Positions 696-23,862 of a stretch of 24,984 nucleotides of DNA are shown here, piece after piece. A model generated the notes under the pieces. That model saw only the letters and a program-made list of their open reading frames with translations. It was not told the DNA's origin and did not search any database. The DNA is taken from the IMG/VR virus record IMGVR_UViG_3300009164_000337, positions 1 to 24,984 of that record; one strand, 5' to 3'. How positions within the stretch are numbered: the first letter of the stretch is position 1; each line of letters starts with the position of its first letter. The translations under genes were made by a program, and so were the position numbers. This DNA comes from a virus.

Positions 696-1169
696 ATGCC
701 ATATAAAAATATTGTAATTACTCCTCCAAACGCAGTCAATCAACAGGCTGTACAAACTGATCATTTTTATCGAGGATTCAGTTCTCGTAATAATAGTAAT
801 CAGCACGGTAGCCTTTATGATTTTGAATTAATTAAGCAAGATATTATTAATCATTTTAATACAAGAAAAAATGAAAGAGTAATGAATCCTGAGTTTGGAA
901 GTGCAATTTGGGATTTATTAATGGAACCACTTACCGATGAAGTTCGACAAATATTAACAGATGACATCACTGCTATTTGTACTAGCGATCCTCGAGTAAC
1001 CCCTGTTCAAATAGATTTAACAGAATACGAGCAAGGATATCTATTAGAGCTGACCTTAAAATTAATTAAAACAGACCAGTCTGCCAATTTGAAATTATCG
1101 TTTGATCAAAAAATTGGATTAACAGTTTTAACAAATACTGTTGGTACAGTTAATTATATACCAGGTTAA
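696..1169 (+). CDS. 25: Baseplate wedge protein gp25 (GPW/gp25 family)
   Basis: A baseplate wedge subunit, related to the gpW/gp25 proteins of contractile tails and type VI secretion sheaths, that helps start sheath assembly. The signature is clear: Y41-DFELIKQDIINHF, then RKNERVMNPEFGSAIWD (57-73) and MEPLTDE (76-82), followed by an alternating hydrophobic C-terminal half typical of the family beta-sheet. At 157 residues it is longer than T4 gp25 (132), mainly through an N-terminal extension of about 40 residues. The next Met is residue 63, inside the conserved core, so the start at 696 is the only sensible one. It has no Shine-Dalgarno sequence; an AATAAATA element ends 5 bases upstream. 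Its place between a gp5-like gene and gp6 matches the T4-like order. High confidence. Confidence 0.93.
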   Translation: MPYKNIVITPPNAVNQQAVQTDHFYRGFSSRNNSNQHGSLYDFELIKQDIINHFNTRKNERVMNPEFGSAIWDLLMEPLTDEVRQILTDDITAICTSDPRVTPVQIDLTEYEQGYLLELTLKLIKTDQSANLKLSFDQKIGLTVLTNTVGTVNYIPG

Positions 1170-1204: not shown

Positions 1205-4200
1205 ATGACTATTCCAGCAACTAACTCTAAACTACTAGTGGCCGAAGATTGGGTTAAGATATATCAATCATTCCGCAACGCAGATTTTCAAAGTTATGAT
1301 TTTGAAACTCTACGCCGATCGATGATTAATTATCTTCAACAGACATATCCTGAAGACTTTAACGACTATATTGACTCTAGCGAGTATATGGCATTAATTG
1401 AGGTAATTGCTTATCTTGGGCAAAACCTTAGTTTTCGTATTGATTTGAATGCTCGAGAAAACTTTTTAGAAACAGCACAACGTCGAAACAGCATATTACA
1501 GTTAGCACAATTAATCAGCTACGTTCCTTCTAGGAATTTATCAGCAAGCGGATTATTAAAAATTGTAGGAGTATCTACTACAGATAACGTTATTGATATT
1601 AACGGAATTAATTTAGCCAACAGTGCAATTTCTTGGAATGACTATACTAATAACAATTGGTACAGTCAATTTATTACAGTTCTAAATTCTGCAATGAATG
1701 GCGCCTATGTATTTGGAACTCCGTACGATAAAGGTATTATCGGCGGAATACCAACAGAAGAATATGCCATTAATAGTTCTAATACAGATGTACCAGTTTA
1801 TACTTTTTCAAAAAATATCAACGGTACAAGTATGGTGTTTGAAATAGTTCCGGCAACATTTTCAGATAGTTCGTTTATATACGAAAAAGCCCCAATACCG
1901 GGCGGAGCAATTAATTTTTTATATCAAAACGACAATCAAGGCGCTAGTAGTCCTAATACAGGATTCTTCATGTATTTCAAACAAGGGACCGTAGCAGCCA
2001 CTGGGTTTTCTATAGACACCCCTGTGCCTAACGAAATAGTAGGCATTAATGCATCAAATATTAACAATACAGACACATGGCTATGGCAACTAGATGCTAA
2101 TGGAAATTACAGCAATTTATGGACACAGGTTCCTGATATTGTTGGAAACAATGTAATATACAATAGCCTAGATCAAAATCAAAGAAATATTTTTAGTATT
2201 AGAACCCGTGATCAAGATCAAATAGACTTAAATTTTGCTGATGGAAGTTTTGGAAATCTTCCTAAAGGTAGATTTCAATTCTTTTATCGTACAAGTAATG
2301 GACTAAGTTACACAATCCGTCCAGATCAAATGTCTGGAATTTCTCTAAAAGTTCCTTATTTCAATAAGTCTGGACAAGGACACACGTTAACATTAACATT
2401 GGCATTACAATATACCGTAGCAAATGCTTCTTCAACAGAATCAAATGCTAGTATAAAAACTAAAGCGCCGCAGGCTTACTATACACAAAATCGTATGGTC
2501 ACTGCTGAAGATTATAATATTACTCCACTAACAGTTAGTAGCAGTATACTTAAATTAAAAAGTATCGCCAGATCTACCAGCGGGTTAAGCAAATATTTTG
2601 ATCTCAATGATGCTACTGGAAAGTATAGTTCAACTAACATTTTTGCGTCTGACGGAATTTTATATAAATCTCAACAAGAAGAAAATTTTCAATTTACATT
2701 TACTAGTAAAAATGATATATTTTCTGTGATTAAAAAACAGATAGAAGACATTTTAGTTAGACCTGGAATTAGATCTTTTTATCTTGATAATTGGCCAAGA
2801 GCATTATTAACAGATTTTGATTTTTCTTGGAATTTAACTAATAAAGTATCGGGACAAAGTCAAGGATATTTGTACGATAGTAATAATAAACCGTTAAGTC
2901 TTGGATCATATTCTAATAGTAATTTAATATATGTAACTCCTGGAGCATTACTACAATTTGATGGAAATTTGTGGGCAACTGTTCTTCAAGTAGTAGGAGA
3001 CGGATCAAATAATGGATTGGGTAATTTATACAATGGCCAAGGTCCGTTAGTGTTAAGCACAGTAATACCTAATGGATCTCTTTTAACAGAGATCATTCCA
3101 GTGTTTATAAACAAATATTCGTATGCTTTTGAATCTGAGTTAGTTAGCATTTGTCTAAATCATAGAAACTTTGGGTTAACTTTTGATACGGTTGACAGAA
3201 CTTGGGCCATTATCACAGATACAAATTTAGATTTAACCAGTCCGTTTAGCCTAAACTATCATAGAAATTTAGATAACTTAAACTTAGATGCTAGTTGGTT
3301 AATTTCGTTTAATTGGGTAGGTAACGCTTATAAAGTCAGATATAGATTTACTGATTATGTTTTTGAAAGCAAAGAACAAACATCTTTTTATTTTAACAAT
3401 TCTGTAAAAAATTATGACTTTACAAATAATAAAGTATTAAAAGATCAAATTATAGTTTTAAGTACTAACCCAGATCTTAGTTTTAAGAATAACTGGAGTA
3501 ATGGAACAATTGACCCAGATACGCTGTCGGTGTCGAATCAATTGGCTTTTGGAATTAACGGAGACTTTTATCTTAATACAGTAGATAATACAACATTTAG
3601 AAAAATTCGCGGTAGATGGCAAAAGCAACCTATTGGCCAGGCGTTAGATGACCTTGGTCAAGATTATGTATGGCAAATTGATAATTCGATTGTACAGTCT
3701 GATGGATACGTAGAACCTAAAAGAGTAAAAGTTAGTTTTTATGAAAATACTCAAACTAGACAGATTGATAATCCTGACGGGTTTGTTAATATTGTACCTG
3801 AAGATAATTATGTATATTTCAAATTATCGACTGATACTGTTACATATTACTTGTATACAGGAGAAGTGAATAGTGATTATGCTACCTCAGTTGATGCAAC
3901 TAATGCCATTAATGCTGGATTAGTTCAAGCAAATTTAGGAGATTTATTTTATTTTTATGATCCCGCAGTGAATGTAGTTAAAAGTTATACACCGACAGCA
4001 ATAAATCTTACAGATCCTTGGACATATGAATCTGAGTATCTTGCATATTCTGGAAGAGCTGACTTAAAAATACATTATATTCATAATAGCGGAGAAAATA
4101 TTAGAATTGATCCTAGTAAGAGTAACATTATAGATATTTACATGCTAACTTCTGATTACAATACATCTTTTAGAAATTGGTTGATTAGCGGAGTAGGGTC

Positions 4201-4699
4201 TGAGCCTGCAGTGCCAACTAGTGCTAGTCTTGAAAGTAATTATTCTGCTAAGTTAGAATTGGTAAAATCAATCAGTGATCAAATTGTGTATCAGCCTGTT
4301 AAGTATAAAATATTATTTGGTAGTACAGCTGAATTAAATTTACAAGCAATATTTAAGGCTGTTCAAAGTCGTACAAGTACAGCCAGCGCCAACAGTATTA
4401 CATCGAGAATATTAGATGCTATTAATGATTTCTTTGCTTTAGAAAATTGGGATTTTGGAGAAAGTTTTTATTTTAGTGAATTAACAACTTACGTAATGAA
4501 TCTTTTAACCCCTGATATAACTAACTTTGTTATAGTTCCTTCGAGTTCTAATTCTGGGTTTGGAAGTCTATATGAGGTAGCGTGTCAAAGTAGTGAAATC
4601 TTTATCAGCGGTGCAACTGCGGCAAATATACAGGTGATAGGTGAAATCACAGCTAGTCAGCTAAATTCAAAAAATCAAATTATTACAAATGGAAGTTGA
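1205..4699 (+). CDS. 6: Baseplate wedge protein gp6 (enlarged)
   Basis: A structural wedge protein that forms the inner ring of the baseplate. Recognised by the N-terminal block at residues 31-111: DFETLRRSMINYLQ, EYMALIEVIAYLGQNLSFRI and NARENFLETAQRRNSI. A second block begins near residue 426 (NRMVTAEDYN) and runs into a DATGKYSSTNIF segment, a layout I associate with gp6 of marine T4-like phages and with baseplate-J-like proteins. The C-terminal part has SDYNTSFRNWL, YKILFGSTAELNLQAIFK and NWDFGESFYFSEL (about 1081-1093), also family-typical. At 1164 residues it is far longer than T4 gp6 (about 660); the extra length lies mostly between the N-terminal block and the C-terminal domain and is beta-rich and Asn/Ser/Thr-rich. 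The start at 1205 has no obvious Shine-Dalgarno sequence, but the first conserved residues follow closely and no better start exists. The gene is followed after 4 bases by the giant gene. Confidence 0.92.
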   Translation: MTIPATNSKLLVAEDWVKIYQSFRNADFQSYDFETLRRSMINYLQQTYPEDFNDYIDSSEYMALIEVIAYLGQNLSFRIDLNARENFLETAQRRNSILQLAQLISYVPSRNLSASGLLKIVGVSTTDNVIDINGINLANSAISWNDYTNNNWYSQFITVLNSAMNGAYVFGTPYDKGIIGGIPTEEYAINSSNTDVPVYTFSKNINGTSMVFEIVPATFSDSSFIYEKAPIPGGAINFLYQNDNQGASSPNTGFFMYFKQGTVAATGFSIDTPVPNEIVGINASNINNTDTWLWQLDANGNYSNLWTQVPDIVGNNVIYNSLDQNQRNIFSIRTRDQDQIDLNFADGSFGNLPKGRFQFFYRTSNGLSYTIRPDQMSGISLKVPYFNKSGQGHTLTLTLALQYTVANASSTESNASIKTKAPQAYYTQNRMVTAEDYNITPLTVSSSILKLKSIARSTSGLSKYFDLNDATGKYSSTNIFASDGILYKSQQEENFQFTFTSKNDIFSVIKKQIEDILVRPGIRSFYLDNWPRALLTDFDFSWNLTNKVSGQSQGYLYDSNNKPLSLGSYSNSNLIYVTPGALLQFDGNLWATVLQVVGDGSNNGLGNLYNGQGPLVLSTVIPNGSLLTEIIPVFINKYSYAFESELVSICLNHRNFGLTFDTVDRTWAIITDTNLDLTSPFSLNYHRNLDNLNLDASWLISFNWVGNAYKVRYRFTDYVFESKEQTSFYFNNSVKNYDFTNNKVLKDQIIVLSTNPDLSFKNNWSNGTIDPDTLSVSNQLAFGINGDFYLNTVDNTTFRKIRGRWQKQPIGQALDDLGQDYVWQIDNSIVQSDGYVEPKRVKVSFYENTQTRQIDNPDGFVNIVPEDNYVYFKLSTDTVTYYLYTGEVNSDYATSVDATNAINAGLVQANLGDLFYFYDPAVNVVKSYTPTAINLTDPWTYESEYLAYSGRADLKIHYIHNSGENIRIDPSKSNIIDIYMLTSDYNTSFRNWLISGVGSEPAVPTSASLESNYSAKLELVKSISDQIVYQPVKYKILFGSTAELNLQAIFKAVQSRTSTASANSITSRILDAINDFFALENWDFGESFYFSELTTYVMNLLTPDITNFVIVPSSSNSGFGSLYEVACQSSEIFISGATAANIQVIGEITASQLNSKNQIITNGS
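4691..4695 (+). promoter_or_regulatory. Ribosome binding site of the giant gene
   Basis: GGAAG inside the last codons of gene 6, 8 bases ahead of the ATG at 4704. It supports this start and suggests translational coupling to gene 6, whose stop ends 4 bases before the ATG. Confidence 0.5.
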
Positions 4700-4703
4700 A
4701 TAG

Positions 4704-7700
4704 ATGGCTAATAATAAAATAAAATCAGTTAATTTTTTGCCAGAATATTTACGAACAGAAAAAAATAATAAATTCCTATCTGCCACAATAGACCAATGGA
4801 TACAATCGCCGCAGTTAGAAAGAATAAATGGTTATATTGGATCTAAGGTAACTCCAACATACAATTCAACTAGTGATGTGTACATCTCAGAGCCATCTGC
4901 ACTCCGTACCAACTATCAGTTAACTCCTGCATTAATTGTAAATGATGCATTGTTTAATGTTCAAGATGTGATTGGGATAGACGATTTAGTTAATGAGATT
5001 TCTCTTCAAGGCGGAAATGTTTCTAATTTTGATAGGTTATTTAGAAGTGATTTTTATTCTTATAATCCTTTTATTGATTGGGACAAGCTGGTAAATTATC
5101 AAAATTACTATTGGTTAGTAATGGGACCAGACACTATTGAAGTTTTAGAAACAGAAGATCAAATAATTAATGAAATCCTAAATCAAAAAAGTTATACTAA
5201 TTCTACTACTGGGTTAACTCTAACCAATGGATTAAAATTAAGATTTATAAATTCAGAAGCCGGTGCATATTATGAAAATGATTATTTTGTAGAAGGTGTT
5301 GGAAGTGATGTTGGAATAAGATTAGTTAATTTCCAAGATTTAATAACTCCGGAACCAATTGCTGGACGGTACGATGAAAATTTTGATATTGCATTGTTTG
5401 ATTTATATCAGTTTGATAATGTTAAAACTCTACCACTAACACCAGAATACACTACAATTAATAGAGCAAGTCAAGATATTAATTCTTGGTCAAGATATAA
5501 TCGGTGGGTACATGCTGAAGTTATAAGAGTTACAGCGGAATATAAAAATCAAATACCAGTATATCCGTCTGAATTTAGAGCACAAAGACCAATCATTGAA
5601 TTTGCACCAGACCTTAAATTATACAACTACGGAACAGTTGGTATTCCTAATGTTGATTTCCTTGATACAATTACTACTGACCCTACAAAAATTAACGGAA
5701 ATTTAGGGTATTATATAGACCAAGTTTTAATAGAGCAAGGTAATAGAATTATATTCAATTCGTCTGCTGATGCTTCGATAATTTATCGTGTAACATTAGA
5801 TCAAAATAAAACAATACAATTAATAGAAGATACAACTGTCCCAGTAGGGGCGGCAGTTTCTATTGATTTAGGAGTTATTAATCATGGTACTGATTGGCAT
5901 TTTGATGGAAGTATATGGCAAAAATCTCAACAACATACGGTCATAAATCAAGCTCCGTTATTTGATCTTTTCAATGATGACGGAACAAGTTATAGTGATC
6001 CAATAAATCTTCCTAGTAATTTTACAGGAAGTCAAATTTTTGGATATACAATAGGTACGGGCACTGATGATCCATATCTTGGGTTTCCGTTAAAGTATAG
6101 AAATAATGTAGAACAGGGCGATTATCTTTTTACAAATTATTTTATGACTGATGTTATATCAATAACAGCTGGAACTCAATTTGTTATTGATATTTCGTCT
6201 TCAATAACGTATACTAAATTTTCTAATTTAACATACGGAGAAAAATATAATAATGTATGGACAAAAAACACAGGATATCAAGTACCTATAATACAGCTTC
6301 AAACAACAGCTGAATCTACTAGTTCGATCGCTATAACAGCAATTGACTCTCCAACAGATCAAGAAATAACATTAGAAGTATATGTAAACAATCAAAAGAT
6401 TGATTCAGTTACAACATCAACTTCTGGACAACAATATCTAGTTAATTTTGATAACCCTCTTCCTGTTGATTCTGATGTCTTGTTTAAGGTTTATACAGAT
6501 GTGCCTGCTAACACTAATGGTTATTATGAAACGCCTTTAGGATTAACCAACAATCCGTTAAATGGCTCGATATCTTATTTTACTTTATCTGACCTTAGTG
6601 ATCACGTTAAAACGATGGCATTGCAATCTCCTGACTTCGTAGGAGTATTTCCGGGAGTTAGCAATTTAAGAGATTTGCCCAATATATCAGAGTATGGTAC
6701 TAGATTAATTTCAAACGCAAACCCTATTGCATTTGCTAACATGTTTGTAGGTAAAAAAGAACATAGTGTAATTAATGCTATTAATAAAGTTAGTGAGCAT
6801 TATACTCAATTTAAGCATCAAATAATTTCTCAATTAAATCGATTGGCTGATCAACAAGATCCGGTATCAGCACTTGATTTAGTACTTACTACTATTAATC
6901 AAGATAAAACAGTTTCAAGTCCGTACAACTTATCAGATATGGTGGGATATGGAACAGATAAAAAAGTTACAACATATACTGTTACTGATAATACTATTAC
7001 CTCGTACGCAATTGATAAAGAATTTGACATATCGGTACTAAGCACACGTTCGGTATTAGTATATGTAAATGGAATACAATTAATATTAAATCGTAATTAT
7101 ATCTTTGAAGTAAACGATAATTATGTAACAATAAGTTCAGTCTTCGAAGATGATGAAATACGTTTAGGTTTGCGTGTAGGAGACATAATCACTATTGTTG
7201 ATTACTCTGATACTTCGGGGTCGTATGTCCCCCCAACACCTAGTAAGCTAGGATTATATCCTGCGTATCAACCTAAAAAATACTTAGACGATACATATAA
7301 TACTCCACAAATGGTAATCCAAGGTCACGACGGGAGTATTACAATTGCCTACAATGATTTTCGAGATAATGTATTATTAGAATTTGAAAAACGTGTTTAT
7401 AATAATATTAAGTCAGCTTATCGGCCTGAATTATTTGATATTAACTCTGTATTCCCTGGAGCTTTTAGAAAAACTCAATATTCTGTTTCTGAAATAAATG
7501 GAATATTAGAAAGTAGTTTTGTTAAATGGTCTGGGTTTAATGGAATTGATTATATAAACAACACAACGTTTGATTCTGATAATTCAAAAACTTGGAATTA
7601 TACAGGATCGTACATACCTCAAATTGATGCTCAAGTGTCTGGATATTGGAGATCAGTTTTTAAGTATTTGTACGATACTGATCGCCCACATACAAATCCT

Positions 7701-10700
7701 TGGGAAATGTTGGGGTTTGATGAAAAACCTTATTGGTGGGATGACGAATACGGCGGAGCTCCTTATACTTCAGCCAACACACACCTATGGCAAGATTTAG
7801 AGGAAGGTCGAATTAGAAACGGAACACGAGTTGGTATAGATACTTTTTATTCAAGGCCTGGATTATTTTCAGATAATCTGTTACCTGTTGATATTTCTGG
7901 AAATCTAGTTGATTTACCTGAATCGATAGTAACAAATATAACTCTTTCAAATCGTAGGCAAAATTGGAAATTTGGCGATCAAGCTCCAGCAGAAACAGCA
8001 TGGAGACGTAGCAGTCAATGGCCGTTTGCTGTGCAACGATTATTAGCATTAACAACCCCTGCTAGCTACGCAAGTTTAATGTACGATACTAGTAGAGTTG
8101 GTCTAAACAACTCTAATCAGTGGATTTATAAAACAGATAACAGATTTTTTAATCTCAGTAACGTAGCAATTCATAATGAAACTGGTACGTTGACTAGCGG
8201 ATATAGTGTGCTGATTAGTGAAACTGGTCAACAACGATCACAAAATTATATAACAACTTTGCGCAGTGATCTTTCTTACGTTAATTTTAATTTGTTTTAT
8301 AAGGTAGGCGGATTTGTTAGTAAAAATACTTTACAGATAATCATTGATGCATACGAGCCTAATAGTAATAGTCCCGGAGCATTGTTACCTCAAGAAGATG
8401 TTACATTAATATTAAATGTTAGTAATCCTGTTAAGTCAATTGGCATATCTGGAATTGTTGTACAAAAGTCAGATAACGGTACTTTTATTATAAAAGGGTA
8501 CGACACTCAAAATCCGTACTTTACTGTATATACACCTATGCGTAACAATAGCACTCCTTCGATTACAATAGGCGGTATCAGTGAACCATATGTAACATGG
8601 GTAAGTGATTTAGGAACAGGAAATACAGGGCTTTCAACGGCTGATACAACCACGGCAGCTTCTGCTACAGGAATTTTTTATCAAGCAGGACAAATAGTAT
8701 CTAATAACGGAAAGTATTATCGAGTAACAGTAAGTCATAGAGGTGAAAGTGCATTTAATCCTGATTTTTATCAATTGTTACCATCCTTACCTACTAGCGG
8801 CGGCGCTTCTGCGTTAACAGCCAATAAGTTTGATAATATTCCAACCAAAGTATTATATGGGACAGAATTTAGAACAATACAACAAGTATATGATGTTATT
8901 GTAGGATATGGTGCTTGGTTAACTGATCAAGGATTTATTTTTGATGAATATAATAGTGATGTTAACGATGTAATTAATTGGCAATTCACTGGTAAAGAGT
9001 TTTTATATTGGACTACACAAAATTGGTCCACAAACAATGTGATAACGTTAAGTCCTTTTGCAGATCAAATAAAATATTCAAATAATCAATCTGTTGTAGA
9101 AAACATTTTTGACAATTATTACGAATATAGTTTATTATCTGCAAACGGATTATCATTCCCAAAGAATAATTTATCTATTAATAGAAACGATGGGGTGTGT
9201 ACAATTGTAGCTACAACGTCAACAGATGGAATCTATTATGCCAAGTTAAATTCTATACAAAAAGAACACGCAATGGTGTTTAATAACACCACAATATTCA
9301 ATGATGTTGTATATGATATTGAAACAGGATATCAGCAACAGCGTATGAAGATATCTGGATTTAGAACTAGTAATTGGACTGGTGACGTATCTAGCCCTGG
9401 ATTTGTATACGACAATGTATCAATATCAAATTGGAAAGAAAATACATATTATCAATCAGCAAGTGTTGTTAGATATAACGGATTGTATTATTCAGCCCTA
9501 GGCAATATTGAACCTACATCTACTTTTGATTTCTTAAAGTGGGAAGTATTGTTAGAAAAACCAACCTCTGATTTATTACCAAACTTTGATTATAAAATAA
9601 ATCAAATTCAAGATTTTTACAGTTTAGATATTGACAATTTTGATACTGCTCAAGAAAAGATGGCTCAACATCTTACAGGATATACACCAAGAAATTATCT
9701 AAACAATATTTTTACAGACCCAATTGCTCAATATAAATTCTATCAAGGATTTATCCGCGAAAAAGGAACACGTAATGCTGTACAAAAATTATCTAAAGCT
9801 ACGATTCAAAATTTTCAAGGAAATATAGATTTTACTGAAGAATGGGCGTTTCGTATCGGAGCATATGGATCTTACACATCATATAAAGAATTAGAAAACA
9901 TATTAGTAGAAGGTACCTTTTTAGAAAATCCGCAAATTATTCAGTATGTTGATGTTGCTCCGGCAGTGAACAATCTTATTTTTTATAGCACATCTAGTAA
10001 TATAACTATCAAACCAGATAATTATGATCCTTCTAAAACTTTTTATGTTACTTCTGGTACATATAAAGAAAATAATTATATACTCCCTACAGCAGGATTT
10101 GTAAGATCTAATGACGTTACGTTTACTGCTTATAGTGAAAACAGTTTGTTAGATATTCTCAACAATCAGGTCCTTAAATTAGGTGATACAGCATGGCTAG
10201 GATTCAAGCAAAATAGTGAATGGGACGTATTAAGATATACACTTGTTTCTGCATCAGTTGTAGAAGCAATTGTGACAGTACCAGGGTCTGAAATAAGGTT
10301 TACTACTAATGGTCCACATAGATTATCAGTAGGAGAAATAGTATCGTTAACACAATTTACTGATCAACTTAACGGAATATATTTCGTAGCATCAATAAAT
10401 TCACCAGACCAGTTTTCGATTAGATCAAATGAAATATATATAGATCAAACATCAACTCCTGGATCTGGTCAATTGTTTAAGTTTGTTACCGCAAGAGCAT
10501 CAAATTTTGATTTGTTTCCTTCAGATAACGAACTATTAGAATTGCCTGAAAATTCACTAGTATGGACAGATAGTGATACAATCGATGGAAATGGAAAATG
10601 GGCAGTATACAGCAAAACAAAAAATTATTATCCTAGTGTTGTTTCAAGCGGCGCAGATTTTGAAGATGATCATTTGGGTTATAGCATTAGTCGTCTTGGA

Positions 10701-13700
10701 ATTGATAATATATTTGTTGTTGGGTCACCTGGACAGAAATTTGATTACGGTAGTGTAACTGCTTATGTTAAAGTAGATGATATATCTCCAGCAAGGTTCA
10801 AATTTTTCTTAAATCAAGATACATTTAGACCTTACTATAATTCTCAAAAATCTAATGTAACAGCGTTTGGACATGATGTTGTCTACGATGATTACGTATT
10901 TCCCGGAACAAATAATGGATTAATATTTGTCGGTGCTCCTAAAACCAGTTATGTAAAAACAGTTTATAATACTACAACTAATATAAACATTGCACTAACA
11001 ACTGCTACAGCATCGAGCTATGTTGAACAAGGGTTAGTAACTATTAGTTCTATTGACCCAGTATCCAACGAAGAAACTAGATTATTAACACTGGTTAGTC
11101 CATCTCCGTCTAAAAATGAATATTTTGGATCAAGTTTATATGTACAACTGAATACAAGTTCTAAATTATTACTAGTTGGCGCACCAGGAAAACCAAATAG
11201 TGTTGGGTCTGTTTATGCTTTCCAAGTAGGAAGTTACACTACAGGAACAACTAGTACATTGACTATATCTGTTGCTCCTGAATTGTTACCTAGCGAAAGT
11301 ACTAAGGGTATGCAGTGGGGACATAGTATTAGCGGATCTGACGACGGATCAGTGATAGCAATTGGCGCTCCGGGGTATAACGATAAAACTGGTTTAGTAA
11401 ATATTTTCCGCAATACTGGAACTTACCTACAGCAGGTAATTATTCCTCCAGATGATTTTGATATTGGTAGTGGATTTGGAGAAAAAGTCGAAGTATCACC
11501 AGACGGCTCCTACTTATTTGTTAGTGCCCCTAATGTGTATAGCTATACAGATAATAATAAATCATACGGTAAAGTGTTAATTTATAAAAACGTTGATGGA
11601 GAATTTGATACTAGCACGGTACAAATATTAGATAACCCATTAATAAGTTCTGGATTAAAATTTGGCCATGATATATCGATTAATCCCGATAACGATATAT
11701 TAGTTGTATCGGCACTTGGAGTTGCATTAATTCCAACAGCATTTGACGAATATCAAACTCGAAATATAGGTGGGAAATCTATAGTTTCTATTGTAGAAAC
11801 AACAAATGATTCTGGATCAACTGAATATTATACCGAAGTTGAACGTACAGGCTCAATTTACGTTTACAATAGAAAACACGATCGATTTGTATTAGCAGAG
11901 GAATTGCCTCCAATTAATCCGCTTAACGGAACTGACTATGGACATAGTTTAATAATTGATAGAGATAACAGTATCTACGTTGGTGCTCCTGCGTTTAACA
12001 ATCAAAAAGAAAGCGCATTCTATCAATACAACTCAACTTCTACAAGTGCGTTTAGTTGGCAAACTTTAAGGTCTCAAGAAGACATGGTCAATATTGATAC
12101 AATTAGAAGAATTGTTCTTATTGACACATTTAATGAAAAAGTTCTAAATTATTTAGAAACAATCGATCCAGCAAAGGGTAAAATATCGGGGCTAGCAGAT
12201 CAAGAAATAAAATACAAATCTATGTTTGACCCCGCTATATATACTGTTGGAAGCACAGGAACAGTAGTTAATCCTTTAACTACGTGGACAGACGACCATG
12301 TTGGTGAATTGTGGTGGGATCTATCTAGTGTTAAATATCAATGGTACGAGCAGGGTGATTTAGAATATAGAAAAAATAATTGGGGTAAATTTTTTCCAGG
12401 ATCGACGATTGATGTTTACGAATGGGTAGGATCACATTTATTGCCAAGTCAGTGGAATAATCAAGCCGATACTACTGTTGGATTAACACAGGGTATTAGT
12501 GGTCAACCAAAATTTATTGATGATTCGACGGTATCGGCAAAACAAATTTATAATTCGATTAGTGATTCATTTACAAATTATTATTTTTATTGGGTTAAAA
12601 ATAAAGTAATAGTTCCAAACTCTATTGGTCGTAATATCAGTGCTTATCAAGTAGCAAAAATAATTGCAGATCCGATTGCTTATGGAATTCAATTTGCCAG
12701 TGCGCTAAGTGCAGATGCAATTGCATTGGCTAACATACCCCCATCTCCAATAGGTAGTAATGTTAGTATTAATATTGCAATGGATCTTAATACAACAGAT
12801 ATACCAAAGCATACAGAGTGGTTACTATTACAAGAAAATAATGTTAATAGTATGCCCGATACTTTATTAGAGAAAAAACTTCTTGACAGTTTAATAGGAC
12901 ACGACAGTTTAGGTAACTTAGTTCCCGATCCGACTTTATCTCAACGACAAGCATACGGAATAGAAATTCGCCCTCGTCAGAGTATGTTTGTTAATCGATT
13001 TCAAGCCTTGCGTAATTTATTAGATTTTACTAATAAAATTCTTATTAATAATCCTGTTACTGGAAATTACAGTTTCAAAAATCTTGAAACAAAAGAAGAA
13101 CAACCAGATCAATACAGTCACGAATATGATCAAATTTTAGATATTCAAACAGAGGCAGATTTATACAACTTAGTTGATACACGACAACTTACCGCAGACA
13201 CCGCGGCAGTATTAACCGCTACAATATATAACGGACAAGTAATTTCAGTTGATATAGTTAATCCTGGCTTTGGATATTTAATATCTCCAAAAGTTACTGT
13301 AATTGGAAATAGTAATGATATTGCTGTTATAACAACTGAAATTAACAGTGATGGGCAAATTATCTCATGTACAATTGAAAATGCTGGATCTGGATATGTG
13401 CAAGCTCCTGAATTAACAGTTCGACCATATACTGTAATTGTAAACAACAACCCAACGTCAAATAATAAATGGTCAAAATATGTTTGGGATGCTTTTAATA
13501 AACGATGGACGAAAGTTCATACTCAAAAATATAATACAGCATTGTACTGGAATTATGTTGATTATTCTAGTTCAGACTACAATTATTTTAGATTGTTTGA
13601 TTACACAATTGATTCTACATATGAATTAGAAACGTTAACCGAAGTAAAACATGGTCAATATATTAAAATAAAAAATATAGGAGACGGAAGATCTGTTGTT

Positions 13701-16700
13701 ATAACTCCGGCGGTTCAAGGCACATACGGCACGTTTAGTAATGAATACGACTTGTTATGGAGTCAAAATGGTACTATACAATTAAGTGACAATCTTTGGA
13801 ATGTTCCAGCTAGTCAGTTAGGGTTTGATCAATACAATAATTATGACGAAACATTATATAATCAAGCACCAGATCTTGAACTACAATACATATTAGCCTC
13901 ATTAAAAAATGATATATTCATTAACGAATTAAAAATTAATTGGAATTTATTTTTCTTTACAGCGGTAAAATATTGTTTATATGAACAAAAATTATTAGAC
14001 TGGGCATTTAAGACTACGTTTATTAATGTTACAAACTACGCAGGAGAATTAGATCAGCGTTCTGTTTATAAAATTGCATCTAGCGAATACTTTGAAGATT
14101 ATATAAACGAAGTTAAACCCTATCACACACAGATTAGAAGTTTTACAACTAATCAGACTGTGTTAGATCCGATTGCCGCATATAATACTGATTTTGATCT
14201 TCCTTCTTATTACAATTCTGCTAACGATCAATTTGAAATAGTAGAAGTTGGAAGTACATTAACCAACTTTTATCCTTGGAAATCTTGGAGTGACAATTAT
14301 TCATATTCCGTGGGTGAAATTACAGTAAATCAAAGAGGTGAAGGGTATACAGAAGCTCCTAACTTAATAATATCTCCTCCAGATTTACCTAATGGAACTA
14401 CGGCCACTGCCGAAGCATACATAGGATTGAAACATATTTCGTTTGTTAGGATTATAAATTCAGGTACTGGCTATATTAAAAACCCAACAGTTTCTATCAC
14501 TGGTGGTGGATCAGTTACAACCACTGCAACCTTCTATGCAAAATTAGTTAATAATACAGTTCGTAAAAATATTGTAGATATTAAATTTGATAGAATTTCT
14601 TTAGGAGATGAAATTGGTAATTTACAAGTTACTGATAGATTTGTTTGCGACGGATCACGGAATGAATTTATACTAAACTGGTTAGCACAGCCAGATAAAC
14701 AAAAAATAAATGTAACATTAGATGGTGATGTTGTATTAATTGCAGACTATTCTATAAAGTATTATACAGAATTCTTTAATGGGTATAATAAAAAATACAG
14801 TAAAATAGTATTCTTAAACTATATTCCACAATATAATCAAATATTAAAAGTAGAATATGAGAAAAATATAGGTCTAATGACAGCTATAGAAAGACTAGGA
14901 TATTTTACTGATATTGTAGATTTTAGTACAGTTACTTCTGGATTGGTTTACCCGCAAACAAGATTAGAAGGTCCTGCGTTTGGACATTCGTCAGCTTGGA
15001 CAGAAGCATATCCAAACTACGATACATTTGCCTGGGCAGATGAAGTTGCTAACTATGCTTCTAAAGAAGTAGTGTCATCTAGTGACAACCTTGCACACCC
15101 TAATTGGACTTCAGTAACGGTATCCTCTACAGCAGACATTAGACTTTTCCAATATGCAAACGTTCCATCAATACCTACTAACATTTTTGTTATATATACT
15201 GGAACTATTTACAACTCTACATTCTCTGCCAATCAGTATGTAACTGCAACTGGTGCTTTGCAAGTTATGGAAATTGGTGAAGGATTTGTGATAATAAATG
15301 GTAAAGTAGATTTTACTCTTCCAAATGCTCGAGATTTACAACCGGGAGATGTTATTGAGTTTTGGGATAACGATTCAAACTTTAGTGTACTAGATAGTAT
15401 AATTCAAGGAGGTGCATGGAGCACATCTACTAATAGCGGGTTTATGAATGTACTTGGCATTGACCCTGAGGATGTAGCAGTTGATACAACTACTGGTCTT
15501 TATTATCTTGGTGGCACTAATACAATAGTAGACGGTGATGGGTATTATACTGACAACACTGGTTATACTCCAGAAGAATTGATATCTGGGCAAGCATCAG
15601 ACAGCTTAGGAATTAACGTTTATACTAAGGAACTAGTTGGAGCTCCAACAATTTATTCTTCCTCTGCTCCTGTATTAGCCGGAGTTAGAACATTTGTTCC
15701 TATGAAATTACTGCCGCCAAGTAAAGATAGTATAACGGTTAATTTTAATAATCAATTGTTTAGATATAATGCTACTACTTCTACCACTGATGCTGAGAGT
15801 TTTTCAATCGATTGGGGTAGTTCAACTTTAATACTTCCACCACAGAATATAGGCGGACTAGTGGGGTATACTATTATAACTTCAGGCGGCGAAGGATACA
15901 TAGATACTGATTATCTAACATTTGCAAATCGATCATCGGCGCAGTTGTCAAGTTTAGCAGGAGAAAGTACAGTCAAGTCAGTATATGTAACCTTAGACGG
16001 AATCGCTCTTTCTACAACAACGTCAACGTCAAATCCGTATTATGAATTTGGAAATGTAAGTAGCAATAATTATAGAGCCGCAGTAAACATTTATAATGCG
16101 TCGACTACCACGTCACACTTAGCACAAGCGTGGTTTTTTGTCAGTAAGTATAAACATTTTAATGAAGTTAAAGAAGAAGGATTTGTATTCTCTATTGCAA
16201 CTACTTCAACCTACGAACTTTCTCAGCCTCCAGGAATTATTGGACCTCCAGAAGCAAATATAATTGTAGAAGTTACTGATAGTTCTGGAACTCGAATTTT
16301 ACAACCGCCTGATATAAAATACTATGAAGTAACAGACCCTGCCTCACTAATTGGAGATTTATTTTTTGGAGTAGAGTCGATTAATATTGCAATATATAGG
16401 AATGGTCTTGAATTAGAATTTGGATTTGATTATTCAATTCTTGGAAATCAGATTAAATTAGTAAACGGTGTTAGTATAGCGGGAGATGTTATAGCTATTG
16501 TAACTACTGATCCAAATCGTAATACATCTAGTGTTCCGTTCTATGATTATTATATTGACGGTAATTTTTTAGTTGTTGACCCCCAAGGACAATTTACTAG
16601 TTCTATTCCTAATTATAGCACTGGCGGCGCGGCTGTGATCAAAGCTATAACGTATACAAATCATGATAGTATGTTGATGAGGAAAGAAACATTCAACGGA

Positions 16701-18284
16701 AACACTAGTGGTCGATATAAAATATCTCGTCGAGTGTTCAATGACAACTATATATGGGTCAGTGTTGACGGAGTTGCACTAATTAATAAAGTTGATTATG
16801 TTATATTAGAAGACCAAGTAACGGTTCAGCTAAGTGATCAGTTTAGTAATTATAGTATAGAACGTATAACAATTACTTCTCTTTCAAGCGACCCGTTATC
16901 AACAACAGTACTTGGGTACAGAACATTTGTTGACATGTTTAATAATACACAGTTCAAACGATTAAGCGCACAAAATACTACATATCTTACACAACCCTTA
17001 AGTTTTAGCGATACTGAAATTCATGTAGCCGACGCTGGAGTATTAAGTCAGCCATTGATTAGTAAAAAAATTCCCGGAGTAGTAATTATTGCTAGAGAAA
17101 GAATTGAATTTTTCCGTGTGTCTAATAATACATTAAGTCAATTACGCCGTAGTACTCTTGGAACAGCACCTAATTTTTATAATGACATTTACACAAAAGT
17201 AATTGATCAAGGTATTACTCAAACAATACCGTACTCAGAAAGAATTTTGAAACAAACATTTATCAGTAATGCTGGATTTCCAACAAATGAACCTTTGACT
17301 ACAAATACTTACATTATTTCTACAACAACAAATTCTGTTTATTATACAAAAGACACAATCACAGTGTCTAATACAAGTACTGCTATTTTACAAAGTAATA
17401 CATACTATAATAATTTAGAGCATATACAGATTTCAATTAATGGACAGTTAGTTGATGATCAAGTTTATCAAAATGTCGATCTTACAACTTTAGCAGTTGT
17501 AATGTCATCTGATCCTCCTAATTTTGTGTCATCAACCTGCACTGCGGTGGCCTTGGTATACGGATTATCTACATCGAGTAGCTACGTAATTGAAGCGTGG
17601 TTTATTGGTAAAGGTGCAACCCCTGCAAACTCTGATGCTCGTCGATTTGCCAATGACGGAATTACGTTACAATCTGCACCAGTTGATTCTACTAAACCAA
17701 TTCCAGCAGTAGACCAAGTTGAAGTATATTATGGCGGACGCTTATTAAGAAAGGCAGGGATGTTCCATCAAGATACAACGGTGTCTTACGATAATCCAAT
17801 AACTTCTTATACTACGGCCACTGTAGCCACTGCACTTGATTTACCGCAGAAAACTAAAGAAATTGGAGTTGCTTATATAACAACCGACACAAACCAAGTA
17901 TGGGTTTATACAGGATCAAAAGAATTTGATGCAATTAGTGGTTATGTTTATAGAGGATTAAATTATTTGCCACCCGAATTTAGTATTAATACTTCGACAC
18001 AAGAACTAACACTAAATATACCAGAAGGGTTAGAATCACAGCATCCTGTTCGTATAGACATAGTTAAACGAGAATTTAATATTAATACAGAATGGAATGA
18101 TGTAGATCCTGAAAATTCTAATAAAACTTTAAGTATTATGAGTAGCACATCAACACAGGCTCGATTCTTACAGGCACGCCCTGCAGAATTACCTGACAAT
18201 TATTATTATGGTGGATCTCAAGGTTTAATAGACAATTCAGGATTTGAACTAACAATAGGCGGAGAGCCACTAGGAGGATTATAA
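4704..18284 (+). CDS. Giant modular virion (baseplate/tail) protein, 4526 residues
   Basis: One unbroken 13.6-kb frame directly after gp6, where T4 has gene 7 and other wedge genes. I recognise the type (very large virion structural protein of aquatic T4-like phages) but not a proven function. Modules in order: N-terminal FLPEYLRT-type domain (about 8-150, ending in WDKLVNYQNYYWL); a helical stretch near 682-718; a GHDGSITIAYNDFRDN / LEFEKRVYNN block (about 875-900); a Trp-rich PWEMLGF...YWWDDEYG block (999-1043); seven FG-GAP-like blades (1989-2443); Gly-Tyr motifs GxGY (from about 2846); a helical FKTTFINV...YINEVKPYHTQIRSF block (about 3105-3145); repeated NG/DG-type beta modules; a PGVVIIARERIEFF...LRRSTLGTA module (4103-4179); and an ARFLQARPAELP tail. 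No signal peptide or transmembrane segment is evident. It most likely forms an extended or peripheral baseplate structure. Equating it with gp7 rests on position only. The C-terminal stop is 2 bases before the next ATG. Confidence 0.85.
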   Translation: MANNKIKSVNFLPEYLRTEKNNKFLSATIDQWIQSPQLERINGYIGSKVTPTYNSTSDVYISEPSALRTNYQLTPALIVNDALFNVQDVIGIDDLVNEISLQGGNVSNFDRLFRSDFYSYNPFIDWDKLVNYQNYYWLVMGPDTIEVLETEDQIINEILNQKSYTNSTTGLTLTNGLKLRFINSEAGAYYENDYFVEGVGSDVGIRLVNFQDLITPEPIAGRYDENFDIALFDLYQFDNVKTLPLTPEYTTINRASQDINSWSRYNRWVHAEVIRVTAEYKNQIPVYPSEFRAQRPIIEFAPDLKLYNYGTVGIPNVDFLDTITTDPTKINGNLGYYIDQVLIEQGNRIIFNSSADASIIYRVTLDQNKTIQLIEDTTVPVGAAVSIDLGVINHGTDWHFDGSIWQKSQQHTVINQAPLFDLFNDDGTSYSDPINLPSNFTGSQIFGYTIGTGTDDPYLGFPLKYRNNVEQGDYLFTNYFMTDVISITAGTQFVIDISSSITYTKFSNLTYGEKYNNVWTKNTGYQVPIIQLQTTAESTSSIAITAIDSPTDQEITLEVYVNNQKIDSVTTSTSGQQYLVNFDNPLPVDSDVLFKVYTDVPANTNGYYETPLGLTNNPLNGSISYFTLSDLSDHVKTMALQSPDFVGVFPGVSNLRDLPNISEYGTRLISNANPIAFANMFVGKKEHSVINAINKVSEHYTQFKHQIISQLNRLADQQDPVSALDLVLTTINQDKTVSSPYNLSDMVGYGTDKKVTTYTVTDNTITSYAIDKEFDISVLSTRSVLVYVNGIQLILNRNYIFEVNDNYVTISSVFEDDEIRLGLRVGDIITIVDYSDTSGSYVPPTPSKLGLYPAYQPKKYLDDTYNTPQMVIQGHDGSITIAYNDFRDNVLLEFEKRVYNNIKSAYRPELFDINSVFPGAFRKTQYSVSEINGILESSFVKWSGFNGIDYINNTTFDSDNSKTWNYTGSYIPQIDAQVSGYWRSVFKYLYDTDRPHTNPWEMLGFDEKPYWWDDEYGGAPYTSANTHLWQDLEEGRIRNGTRVGIDTFYSRPGLFSDNLLPVDISGNLVDLPESIVTNITLSNRRQNWKFGDQAPAETAWRRSSQWPFAVQRLLALTTPASYASLMYDTSRVGLNNSNQWIYKTDNRFFNLSNVAIHNETGTLTSGYSVLISETGQQRSQNYITTLRSDLSYVNFNLFYKVGGFVSKNTLQIIIDAYEPNSNSPGALLPQEDVTLILNVSNPVKSIGISGIVVQKSDNGTFIIKGYDTQNPYFTVYTPMRNNSTPSITIGGISEPYVTWVSDLGTGNTGLSTADTTTAASATGIFYQAGQIVSNNGKYYRVTVSHRGESAFNPDFYQLLPSLPTSGGASALTANKFDNIPTKVLYGTEFRTIQQVYDVIVGYGAWLTDQGFIFDEYNSDVNDVINWQFTGKEFLYWTTQNWSTNNVITLSPFADQIKYSNNQSVVENIFDNYYEYSLLSANGLSFPKNNLSINRNDGVCTIVATTSTDGIYYAKLNSIQKEHAMVFNNTTIFNDVVYDIETGYQQQRMKISGFRTSNWTGDVSSPGFVYDNVSISNWKENTYYQSASVVRYNGLYYSALGNIEPTSTFDFLKWEVLLEKPTSDLLPNFDYKINQIQDFYSLDIDNFDTAQEKMAQHLTGYTPRNYLNNIFTDPIAQYKFYQGFIREKGTRNAVQKLSKATIQNFQGNIDFTEEWAFRIGAYGSYTSYKELENILVEGTFLENPQIIQYVDVAPAVNNLIFYSTSSNITIKPDNYDPSKTFYVTSGTYKENNYILPTAGFVRSNDVTFTAYSENSLLDILNNQVLKLGDTAWLGFKQNSEWDVLRYTLVSASVVEAIVTVPGSEIRFTTNGPHRLSVGEIVSLTQFTDQLNGIYFVASINSPDQFSIRSNEIYIDQTSTPGSGQLFKFVTARASNFDLFPSDNELLELPENSLVWTDSDTIDGNGKWAVYSKTKNYYPSVVSSGADFEDDHLGYSISRLGIDNIFVVGSPGQKFDYGSVTAYVKVDDISPARFKFFLNQDTFRPYYNSQKSNVTAFGHDVVYDDYVFPGTNNGLIFVGAPKTSYVKTVYNTTTNINIALTTATASSYVEQGLVTISSIDPVSNEETRLLTLVSPSPSKNEYFGSSLYVQLNTSSKLLLVGAPGKPNSVGSVYAFQVGSYTTGTTSTLTISVAPELLPSESTKGMQWGHSISGSDDGSVIAIGAPGYNDKTGLVNIFRNTGTYLQQVIIPPDDFDIGSGFGEKVEVSPDGSYLFVSAPNVYSYTDNNKSYGKVLIYKNVDGEFDTSTVQILDNPLISSGLKFGHDISINPDNDILVVSALGVALIPTAFDEYQTRNIGGKSIVSIVETTNDSGSTEYYTEVERTGSIYVYNRKHDRFVLAEELPPINPLNGTDYGHSLIIDRDNSIYVGAPAFNNQKESAFYQYNSTSTSAFSWQTLRSQEDMVNIDTIRRIVLIDTFNEKVLNYLETIDPAKGKISGLADQEIKYKSMFDPAIYTVGSTGTVVNPLTTWTDDHVGELWWDLSSVKYQWYEQGDLEYRKNNWGKFFPGSTIDVYEWVGSHLLPSQWNNQADTTVGLTQGISGQPKFIDDSTVSAKQIYNSISDSFTNYYFYWVKNKVIVPNSIGRNISAYQVAKIIADPIAYGIQFASALSADAIALANIPPSPIGSNVSINIAMDLNTTDIPKHTEWLLLQENNVNSMPDTLLEKKLLDSLIGHDSLGNLVPDPTLSQRQAYGIEIRPRQSMFVNRFQALRNLLDFTNKILINNPVTGNYSFKNLETKEEQPDQYSHEYDQILDIQTEADLYNLVDTRQLTADTAAVLTATIYNGQVISVDIVNPGFGYLISPKVTVIGNSNDIAVITTEINSDGQIISCTIENAGSGYVQAPELTVRPYTVIVNNNPTSNNKWSKYVWDAFNKRWTKVHTQKYNTALYWNYVDYSSSDYNYFRLFDYTIDSTYELETLTEVKHGQYIKIKNIGDGRSVVITPAVQGTYGTFSNEYDLLWSQNGTIQLSDNLWNVPASQLGFDQYNNYDETLYNQAPDLELQYILASLKNDIFINELKINWNLFFFTAVKYCLYEQKLLDWAFKTTFINVTNYAGELDQRSVYKIASSEYFEDYINEVKPYHTQIRSFTTNQTVLDPIAAYNTDFDLPSYYNSANDQFEIVEVGSTLTNFYPWKSWSDNYSYSVGEITVNQRGEGYTEAPNLIISPPDLPNGTTATAEAYIGLKHISFVRIINSGTGYIKNPTVSITGGGSVTTTATFYAKLVNNTVRKNIVDIKFDRISLGDEIGNLQVTDRFVCDGSRNEFILNWLAQPDKQKINVTLDGDVVLIADYSIKYYTEFFNGYNKKYSKIVFLNYIPQYNQILKVEYEKNIGLMTAIERLGYFTDIVDFSTVTSGLVYPQTRLEGPAFGHSSAWTEAYPNYDTFAWADEVANYASKEVVSSSDNLAHPNWTSVTVSSTADIRLFQYANVPSIPTNIFVIYTGTIYNSTFSANQYVTATGALQVMEIGEGFVIINGKVDFTLPNARDLQPGDVIEFWDNDSNFSVLDSIIQGGAWSTSTNSGFMNVLGIDPEDVAVDTTTGLYYLGGTNTIVDGDGYYTDNTGYTPEELISGQASDSLGINVYTKELVGAPTIYSSSAPVLAGVRTFVPMKLLPPSKDSITVNFNNQLFRYNATTSTTDAESFSIDWGSSTLILPPQNIGGLVGYTIITSGGEGYIDTDYLTFANRSSAQLSSLAGESTVKSVYVTLDGIALSTTTSTSNPYYEFGNVSSNNYRAAVNIYNASTTTSHLAQAWFFVSKYKHFNEVKEEGFVFSIATTSTYELSQPPGIIGPPEANIIVEVTDSSGTRILQPPDIKYYEVTDPASLIGDLFFGVESINIAIYRNGLELEFGFDYSILGNQIKLVNGVSIAGDVIAIVTTDPNRNTSSVPFYDYYIDGNFLVVDPQGQFTSSIPNYSTGGAAVIKAITYTNHDSMLMRKETFNGNTSGRYKISRRVFNDNYIWVSVDGVALINKVDYVILEDQVTVQLSDQFSNYSIERITITSLSSDPLSTTVLGYRTFVDMFNNTQFKRLSAQNTTYLTQPLSFSDTEIHVADAGVLSQPLISKKIPGVVIIARERIEFFRVSNNTLSQLRRSTLGTAPNFYNDIYTKVIDQGITQTIPYSERILKQTFISNAGFPTNEPLTTNTYIISTTTNSVYYTKDTITVSNTSTAILQSNTYYNNLEHIQISINGQLVDDQVYQNVDLTTLAVVMSSDPPNFVSSTCTAVALVYGLSTSSSYVIEAWFIGKGATPANSDARRFANDGITLQSAPVDSTKPIPAVDQVEVYYGGRLLRKAGMFHQDTTVSYDNPITSYTTATVATALDLPQKTKEIGVAYITTDTNQVWVYTGSKEFDAISGYVYRGLNYLPPEFSINTSTQELTLNIPEGLESQHPVRIDIVKREFNINTEWNDVDPENSNKTLSIMSSTSTQARFLQARPAELPDNYYYGGSQGLIDNSGFELTIGGEPLGGL
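10668..12032 (+). other. FG-GAP (integrin-alpha-like) beta-propeller region within the giant gene
   Basis: Encodes residues 1989-2443. Seven units can be lined up, each with [FLYW]-G-[HYSE] then a hydrophobic strand and a [IV]-[AGS]-[APS]-P or similar turn: LGYS/VVGSPG (1991), FGHD/FVGAPK (2055), FGSS/LVGAPG (2141), WGHS/AIGAPG (2205), FGEK/FVSAPN (2258), FGHD/VVSALG (2320) and YGHS/YVGAPA (2412). Several blades are closed by a GSVxAY / GKVLIYKN / GLVNIF strand, as in FG-GAP repeats. The full calcium loop DxDxDG is degenerate (SDDGS, SPDGS, NPDND, DRDNS). Spacing of about 45-90 residues fits a seven-bladed propeller with insertions. Confidence 0.75.
13241..13422 (+). repeat. Paired Gly-Tyr protein repeats in the giant gene
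   Basis: Two adjacent copies of a motif I-x-NxGxGYxxxPxVTV at residues about 2846-2870 (VNPGFGYLISPKVTV) and 2887-2907 (ENAGSGYVQAPELTV). Further copies occur near residues 3206 (QRGEGYTEAPNLII), 3245 (NSGTGYIKNPTVSI) and, degraded, 3722 (SGGEGYIDTDYLTF). The repetition is at protein level; the DNA copies have diverged. Confidence 0.65.
18272..18277 (+). promoter_or_regulatory. Strong ribosome binding site of the collagen-like fibre gene
   Basis: AGGAGG, 9 bases before the ATG at 18287, within the final codons of the giant gene. It is the best Shine-Dalgarno match I see in this window and contrasts with several genes here that have none. Confidence 0.8.
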
Positions 18285-18286
18285 AA

Positions 18287-19366
18287 ATGCCAGAAATATC
18301 ACAGTTACCAATTATATTAACTGCCACAAATCAAACTTACCTTGTTTCTGTAACCAACGGTGTTGCACAAAGATTAGCCTTTAGTGGAGTTAGTCAAATT
18401 GAGGGACCTTTGGGATATACAGGATCAAGGGGTGTTGGGTATACTGGATCTGTTAGTAATATTCCTGGATATATTGGATCAAAAGGATTTACAGGATCAT
18501 TTGGATTCGTTGGAAGCTCTGGTGCTTATGCCGCTGTGGGATTTTCTGGAAGCCGGGGGTCTGTTGGTTTTAATGGAAGTTTAGGATATACTGGTAGTCA
18601 AGGACAGGGGTATACAGGAAGTCGAGGAGAACCAGGTTCTGCTGTTGACAGAGGATTTGTAGGAAGTCGAGGAACCGCAGGAGTTAATGGAACACTTGGA
18701 TTTACTGGTAGTAGAGGAGATACAGGAAATACTGGTGAGACTGGGTTTGTGGGATCAATGGGATTTTTTGGAAGTAGAGGATTTGCTGGATCAGCAGGAT
18801 TAAATGCTACAGGATACTTTGGATCGAGAGGATTTACTGGTAGTAAAGGGGAGACCGGATCAGGATTTACAGGATCAGCCGGTGTTGGATTTCGAGGAAG
18901 CCAAGGCGAACAAGGTCCACAAGGACCACAAGGTATCCAGGGAACTGCCGCCGCAAGTGTTGCAGTAGGTAACGGGTTTATTGCTTATGGTAATGGGTCT
19001 GGGATCACAGGAAACAGTTTTTTAACCACAGATGGTAATGGAAATTTATCTGCTTCCGGTGATATAACAGCGTTTGCAACATCTGATCAAAGATTAAAAA
19101 CTAATATAGAAATAATTGTAGATGCTTTAGATAAAGTTAATCGTATTAGTGGTATAACGTTTAATTGGAACGAAAATGCAGAAGGTAAAGACCTTACTCG
19201 TAGAGAAGCAGGAGTTTTAGCACAACAGATTCAAGCAATATTACCTGAAGTTGTAACAGAACGAGAAAATGGCACTTTGGCTGTTCGGTATGAATTGTTA
19301 GTTCCGTTGCTTATAGAAGCTATTAAAGAGTTATCAACAGAAGTTAACAAATTAAAAAATTCTTAA
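18287..19366 (+). CDS. Collagen-like tail fibre protein with C-terminal S74 self-cleaving chaperone
   Basis: Probably a trimeric fibre or adhesin. Residues 1-40 form a short N-terminal domain (MPEISQLPII...) likely to attach the fibre to the virion. Residues 43-205 are Gly-rich with 18 copies of G[FY]xGS, ending in a classical collagen-like stretch GEQGPQGPQGIQG (207-219). After a spacer (NGNGNLSASGDI-type, 230-262) comes the intramolecular chaperone: ATSDQRLKTNI, with Ser266 and Lys271 in the S-x4-K spacing of the catalytic dyad of S74/endosialidase-type domains, then the NRISGITFNW strand and a C-terminal coiled-coil-prone tail (YELLVPLLIEAIKELSTEVNKL). By family knowledge the domain folds the trimer and then cuts just before Ser266, releasing about 94 residues. 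The gene starts 2 bases after the giant gene's stop behind AGGAGG, so it is likely cotranslated. The fibre's target is unknown. Confidence 0.88.
   Translation: MPEISQLPIILTATNQTYLVSVTNGVAQRLAFSGVSQIEGPLGYTGSRGVGYTGSVSNIPGYIGSKGFTGSFGFVGSSGAYAAVGFSGSRGSVGFNGSLGYTGSQGQGYTGSRGEPGSAVDRGFVGSRGTAGVNGTLGFTGSRGDTGNTGETGFVGSMGFFGSRGFAGSAGLNATGYFGSRGFTGSKGETGSGFTGSAGVGFRGSQGEQGPQGPQGIQGTAAASVAVGNGFIAYGNGSGITGNSFLTTDGNGNLSASGDITAFATSDQRLKTNIEIIVDALDKVNRISGITFNWNENAEGKDLTRREAGVLAQQIQAILPEVVTERENGTLAVRYELLVPLLIEAIKELSTEVNKLKNS
18413..18901 (+). repeat. Collagen-like Gly-aromatic repeat tract
   Basis: Encodes residues 43-205, with 18 copies of the pentapeptide G-[FY]-x-G-S, mostly spaced 6 to 15 residues apart. 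The DNA is a degenerate tandem repeat around GGATTTACAGGATCA-like units. Such tracts often vary in copy number through recombination. Confidence 0.85.
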
Positions 19367-22761: not shown

Positions 22762-22788
22762 GGACTACTAATAACGGTTTAGAATATT

Positions 22789-23850: not shown

Positions 23851-23852
23851 CT

Positions 23853-23857
23853 AAGGA
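23853..23857 (+). promoter_or_regulatory. Ribosome binding site of the third paralogue
   Basis: AAGGA, 5 bases before the ATG at 23863, in a 12-base gap. It supports this start for a gene with no stop inside the window. Confidence 0.6.
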
Positions 23858-23862
23858 ATATC

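Follow-up and report, generated by a model that had tools for sequence, protein, structure and literature searches.

Sequence profiles and a confident predicted structure identify residues ~1973-2454 of a giant viral structural protein as a predicted closed seven-bladed beta-propeller of the FG-GAP_2/integrin-alpha-like type. Comparison with homologues shows that the propeller is an insert between two conserved anchors of this baseplate-region protein. A clade of large uncultivated viruses carries the propeller, which is of the integrin-head type and may be the virus surface that touches the host cell. The window, meaning the whole stretch of DNA analysed here, is a virus record of 24,984 nt (IMGVR_UViG_3300009164_000337, positions 1 to 24,984) and is probably a fragment.

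On the + strand the window opens with the gene for a lysozyme-like protein (1-684), and the same strand carries genes for a gp25-like baseplate wedge protein (696..1169; phrog_43, E 3.7e-18), a gp6-like baseplate wedge protein (1205..4699; phrog_10646, E 2.4e-285), the propeller-bearing giant structural protein of 4526 aa (4704..18284, an open ORF) and, directly downstream of the latter, a collagen/S74 fibre protein (18287-19366). More genes of tail-related look lie 3' of the fibre gene. Three successive genes at 20725-24984 share a related N-terminal stretch (~120 aa, 33-39% identity) and are apparently tandem paralogues. For the giant protein the PHROG match is phrog_10938 (virion structural protein; 1037.7 bits), and homologues were found in the jumbo phages PA5oct, Atu_ph07, Phosso, SCTP-2 and RaK2 and in a Vibrio phage. 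The record of the PA5oct homologue (gp355) holds an ESI-MS/MS note, and its gene adjoins two others annotated as baseplate wedge subunits; a gp6-like gene adjoins the giant-protein gene in PA5oct, Atu_ph07, Phosso and RaK2. The gene order (gp25, gp6, giant protein), taken with the virion mass-spectrometry note for the PA5oct homologue, supports a location of the giant protein in the baseplate region, as the preliminary description of this DNA had supposed.

The giant-protein gene directly follows the gp6-like gene (1205-4699, then 4704-18284), as for gp7 of T4, where the gp7 gene comes straight after gp6. Likeness to T4 gp7 was sought with profiles of three scaffold blocks against PDB sequences, with no reliable match, and a model of residues 2456-3195 (pTM 0.51) likewise gave no reliable match to PDB folds. 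One member of alignment A2 matched Gp7_5th weakly (E 0.03). Elsewhere in the scaffold, a CBM_5_12-like module (residues 1323-1351, window 8670-8756) passes the Pfam cut-off in a scan of that region by itself, and 10 of 11 relatives show it at some level. Beta repeats of the GxGYxxxPxV type, which weakly resemble domains of the T4 tail sheath, occur repeatedly in the giant protein, at residues about 2830-2912 and 3240-3300.

Seven FG-GAP units had been proposed in residues 1989-2443, which a coordinate check of the ORF places at window positions 10668-12032. In residues 1950-2459 the FG...GAP unit, searched for as a regular expression, occurs seven times; 2000 shuffles gave 0.22 on average and never more than 3. 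The same number is returned by a blade HMM that was built from relatives only, with the window left out: exactly seven repeats in the whole 4526-aa protein (E 1.7e-39), at residues 1989-2025, 2055-2095, 2140-2182, 2204-2246, 2256-2307, 2319-2339 and 2412-2456. Applied to six cultured homologues, this HMM found zero repeats. One of 200 shuffled segments scored E 0.005 in the control, and lone weak repeats found with the HMM therefore carry little meaning.

Scanning of the segment with Pfam FG-GAP_2 (PF14312) gave 33.7 bits versus a cut-off of 23 (E 4.2e-8), although a scan of the full-length 4526-aa protein did not report this match. At E 0.1, the profile is matched by 18 of 20 members of the family. 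The classical FG-GAP profile (PF01839) gave no match at E 0.001. When the profile of 15 phage homologues (alignment A3) was compared with PDB sequences, the 40 best matches were integrin alpha chains, with alpha-4 first (E 5.2e-14). Searched by itself, the window's sequence weakly matched a fatty-acid-binding protein in PDB (E 0.01); as integrins are what the family profile finds, this was put down to chance. The suspicion that the canonical calcium loops are degenerate proved correct: the D-x-[DN]-x-[DN]-G motif is absent from the propeller segment of the window, and for this reason calcium-dependent binding of a ligand, as in integrins, was rejected. Another giant open frame with seven FG-GAP_2 matches was seen at L016 (2-11485), where no match to the scaffold block of the window was found.

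The AlphaFold2 model calculated with A3 has a pLDDT of 81.3 and a pTM of 0.85. All of the top 50 solved structures returned by Foldseek are integrins (best E 2.6e-14). With VIA-align, integrin alpha-M superimposes over 359 residues with Z 32.7 and an rmsd of 2.9; seven-bladed rings of the RACK1/WD40 type come next at Z about 31, and Z alone thus poorly tells integrins from other seven-bladed rings. The integrin-type assignment accordingly rests on sequence profile and predicted fold together. Model residues 39-520 align to complete seven-bladed propellers, and the integrin alignments begin at model residues 38-40. The earlier proposal of a closed, integrin-alpha-like ring is supported by this confident model of the segment; its limits are slightly wider than first given, at about residues 1973-2454 (window 10620-12065).

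The whole propeller, as defined by profiles, model and fold matches, occupies residues 1973-2454 (10620..12065, + strand, as for all features that follow). The seven blades, each seen in the model and by the blade HMM, comprise residues 1989-2034 (10668..10805), 2055-2131 (10866..11096), 2140-2189 (11121..11270), 2204-2245 (11313..11438), 2256-2310 (11469..11633), 2319-2401 (11658..11906) and 2412-2454 (11937..12065). Blade 2 has a 31-residue B-C loop, and inserts are present in this blade in relatives; the B-C loop of blade 6 is 44 residues long and is modelled with low confidence. An N-terminal strand in the model (residues 1975-1981, 10626..10646) probably closes the last blade, as in integrins, by a pairing that we infer.

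The propeller is framed by an N-side anchor (residues 1952-1971, VWTDS...KWAVYSK; 10557..10616), which is conserved in the propeller-free PA5oct protein, and by a C-side anchor (residues 2452-2464, WQTLRSQEDMVNI; 12057..12095) conserved in propeller-free homologues. In PA5oct the flanks join directly, with the sequence KVWIDSINSDNDWAVAVVSGSTITNIRSRQNLVD, and the window reads LVWTDSDTIDGNGKWAVYSK, then the propeller, then SWQTLRSQEDMVN. The propeller is absent from this slot in six cultured jumbo-phage homologues. Between alignable flanks the slot measures 131-1540 aa in the cultured homologues and 560-715 aa in the window, the latter varying with the end point of the flank alignment. Pfam domains were found in none of the PA5oct, SCTP-2 and Phosso slots, and a LamG-like domain suspected by eye in the SCTP-2 slot was unsupported by Pfam. 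The GxGYxxxPxV-type repeats occupy much of the slot in Atu_ph07 and Phosso (L003 and L005).

Viral contigs searched with scaffold block 840-1302, which is blind to the propeller, yielded 24 loci. The tree of this block comprises six cultured phages and, from the uncultivated clade, 22 sequences, of which some had been picked up via the propeller itself; a single change (support 98/98) divides the two groups. The distribution is most simply explained if the propeller was gained once, in the ancestor of an uncultivated clade related to known jumbo phages. Members of the main clade show it clearly, the deepest members more weakly: one of the latter, L034, has only three blade matches together with WD40-type Pfam matches. 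In L017 the propeller is cut by the contig end. No cultured phage with this propeller was found by tblastn of the window segment and the L032 slot against 50,697 phage records. A scan of genome contigs for a cellular donor returned no relative, which is weak evidence since the search pattern came from the N-side anchor instead of the blades. CBM_5_12-like sequence below the Pfam cut-off lies inside the slots of L012 and L032, in stretches that by inspection appear to fall in B-C loops. The slot of L012 (6842-10816) is 1,310 aa long and contains its CBM-like stretch, and the propeller there appears to be interrupted after blade 2 by other sequence, several hundred residues long.

As for function, we prefer to regard the propeller as a candidate host-contact domain on the baseplate, a reading to which we give somewhat better than even chances. 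The ring would be exposed on the tail baseplate as a built-in adhesin, with one face in contact with the surface of the host cell, with a glycan or with an outer-membrane protein. Since its two ends would join the scaffold at almost one point, the domain could be added and reshaped without upsetting the rest of the protein. Averaged over nine relatives, identity to the window is 37% in the propeller, versus 54% and 57% in the flanks. In the pair L029/L030, a 400-residue block with most of the propeller exceeds every other block in amino-acid changes, at ordinary synonymous change; the pair L032/L040 shows the same excess more weakly. Loops vary most in length between strands B-C and D-A (mean SD 4.3 and 1.9, versus 0.6 for A-B and 1.0 for C-D). 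The B-C and D-A loops of a propeller share one face. Fast amino-acid divergence, variable-length loops on one face and the CBM-like inserts in relatives fit host contact, to judge from sequence comparison; the same evidence is also compatible with a lattice contact.

Several observations count against the host-contact reading. Residues 3450-4050 of the giant protein diverge more than the propeller, and in L029/L030 substitutions are commoner in the A-B and C-D loops than in the B-C and D-A loops; substitution rates thus point the opposite way from loop length, and no ligand face can be named with confidence. Furthermore, the downstream fibre-like proteins of the clade could recognize the host instead. 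A more elaborate form of host contact seems unlikely, though conceivable: an integrin-like adhesion head built into the wedge region of the baseplate scaffold, with a ligand face extended in relatives by carbohydrate-binding modules set into its loops, which would unite host recognition and the trigger for tail contraction in one polypeptide.

The chief alternative, though a less likely one, is that the propeller serves as a docking platform within the virion; it would hold another virion protein, such as a short fibre, a pin or an adjacent wedge, and would lack a ligand on the host. There is a precedent in the SU10 nozzle protein, whose seven-bladed propeller binds other virion parts, namely the tail needle and, via an extension of blade 1, the short tail fibre (PMC9509320). 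Docking is also favoured by the collagen/S74 fibre gene directly downstream, and by the correlation between propeller and C-flank distances (r 0.88 over 91 non-independent pairs), from which the propeller appears to be largely inherited with the scaffold and not freely swapped. The faster divergence of the propeller than of its flanks speaks against such a role, although a fast-evolving fibre partner could also cause it. So does the fact that the propeller-free homologues are virion proteins, by which the propeller is not essential to the scaffold as such.

It is very unlikely that the propeller does no more than fill, as a passive spacer, a slot open to nearly any insert, as the 131-1540 aa held by the same slot in other phages and the lack of Pfam matches there in PA5oct, SCTP-2 and Phosso might suggest: most main-clade members keep seven blades across deep divergence, and synonymous changes exceed amino-acid changes in the propeller block too. 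Least probable of all is an enzyme acting, for example, on surface polysaccharide; enzymatic beta-propellers occur in other phage and carbohydrate-active families and a cell-degrading role has been proposed too for PhiKZ gp131C (PMC4901313), but the searches matched no enzyme family, and the sequence kin here, FG-GAP_2 and the alpha chains of integrins, are domains that bind.

FG-GAP propellers are already known in giant viruses and some phages, as are beta-propellers in phages. In a 2024 prasinovirus paper, the authors regarded their own FG-GAP genes as perhaps the first to be confirmed in a virus (PMC11467894). No literature pairing FG-GAP with phage and baseplate, or with tail fiber, was found within the partial coverage of our search, and no record of an FG-GAP ring embedded in a baseplate-region protein was found, its ingredients being known. 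Such a ring was apparently gained a single time and then retained throughout a broad uncultivated clade, and cultured jumbo phages are without it; their ring-free site offers a clean with/without comparison of how phage baseplates gain host-contact domains.

The giant virion proteins of PA5oct (gp355), RaK2, Atu_ph07, Phosso and SCTP-2 share a homologous scaffold with the window but have no propeller at the site. The same PF14312 repeat family and propeller fold occur in S-TIM5 gp054, Atu_ph07 gp320 and giant-virus FG-GAP proteins; the two phage proteins are, however, encoded by separate genes of ~400 aa, whereas here the ring is inserted in a 4526-aa protein. The stand-alone gp054 of cyanophage S-TIM5 (NC_019516.2, 159352-160575; L063) is annotated as a virion structural protein and has six FG-GAP_2 repeats. 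Atu_ph07 gp320 (L064, 5019-6200), annotated as 'hemagglutinin', has FG-GAP_2 repeats and a propeller-like predicted structure, and adjoins genes annotated as tail sheath. The Sinorhizobium phage Phosso (PV764938.1; part in L062) has 42 FG-GAP_2 matches, located at 48338-68978 and about 92-94.5 kb. The majority fall in two adjacent giant hypothetical genes (about 3160 and 3690 aa) and others in ~400-aa genes, all far from its homologue of the window's giant protein. Seven-bladed PhiKZ gp131C (4GBF) and the receptor-binding protein of S. aureus phage phi11 are also baseplate beta-propellers and provide precedents for host contact, the role of gp131C being reported as unconfirmed (PMC4901313). 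Compared by description, these are separate proteins or terminal or central fibre domains, five-bladed in phi11, and are not there called FG-GAP. The best PDB relatives, by profile and fold alike, are the integrin alpha propellers (alpha-4, alpha-M and alpha-V), which likewise have seven FG-GAP blades and share about 14-17% identity with the phage propeller. Integrin alpha is a cell-surface receptor chain that pairs with a beta subunit, which would not be expected in a phage virion, and it has DxDxDG calcium loops in several blades, whereas the phage propeller is embedded in a structural protein and is without such a motif, and we therefore call it integrin-like and not an integrin.
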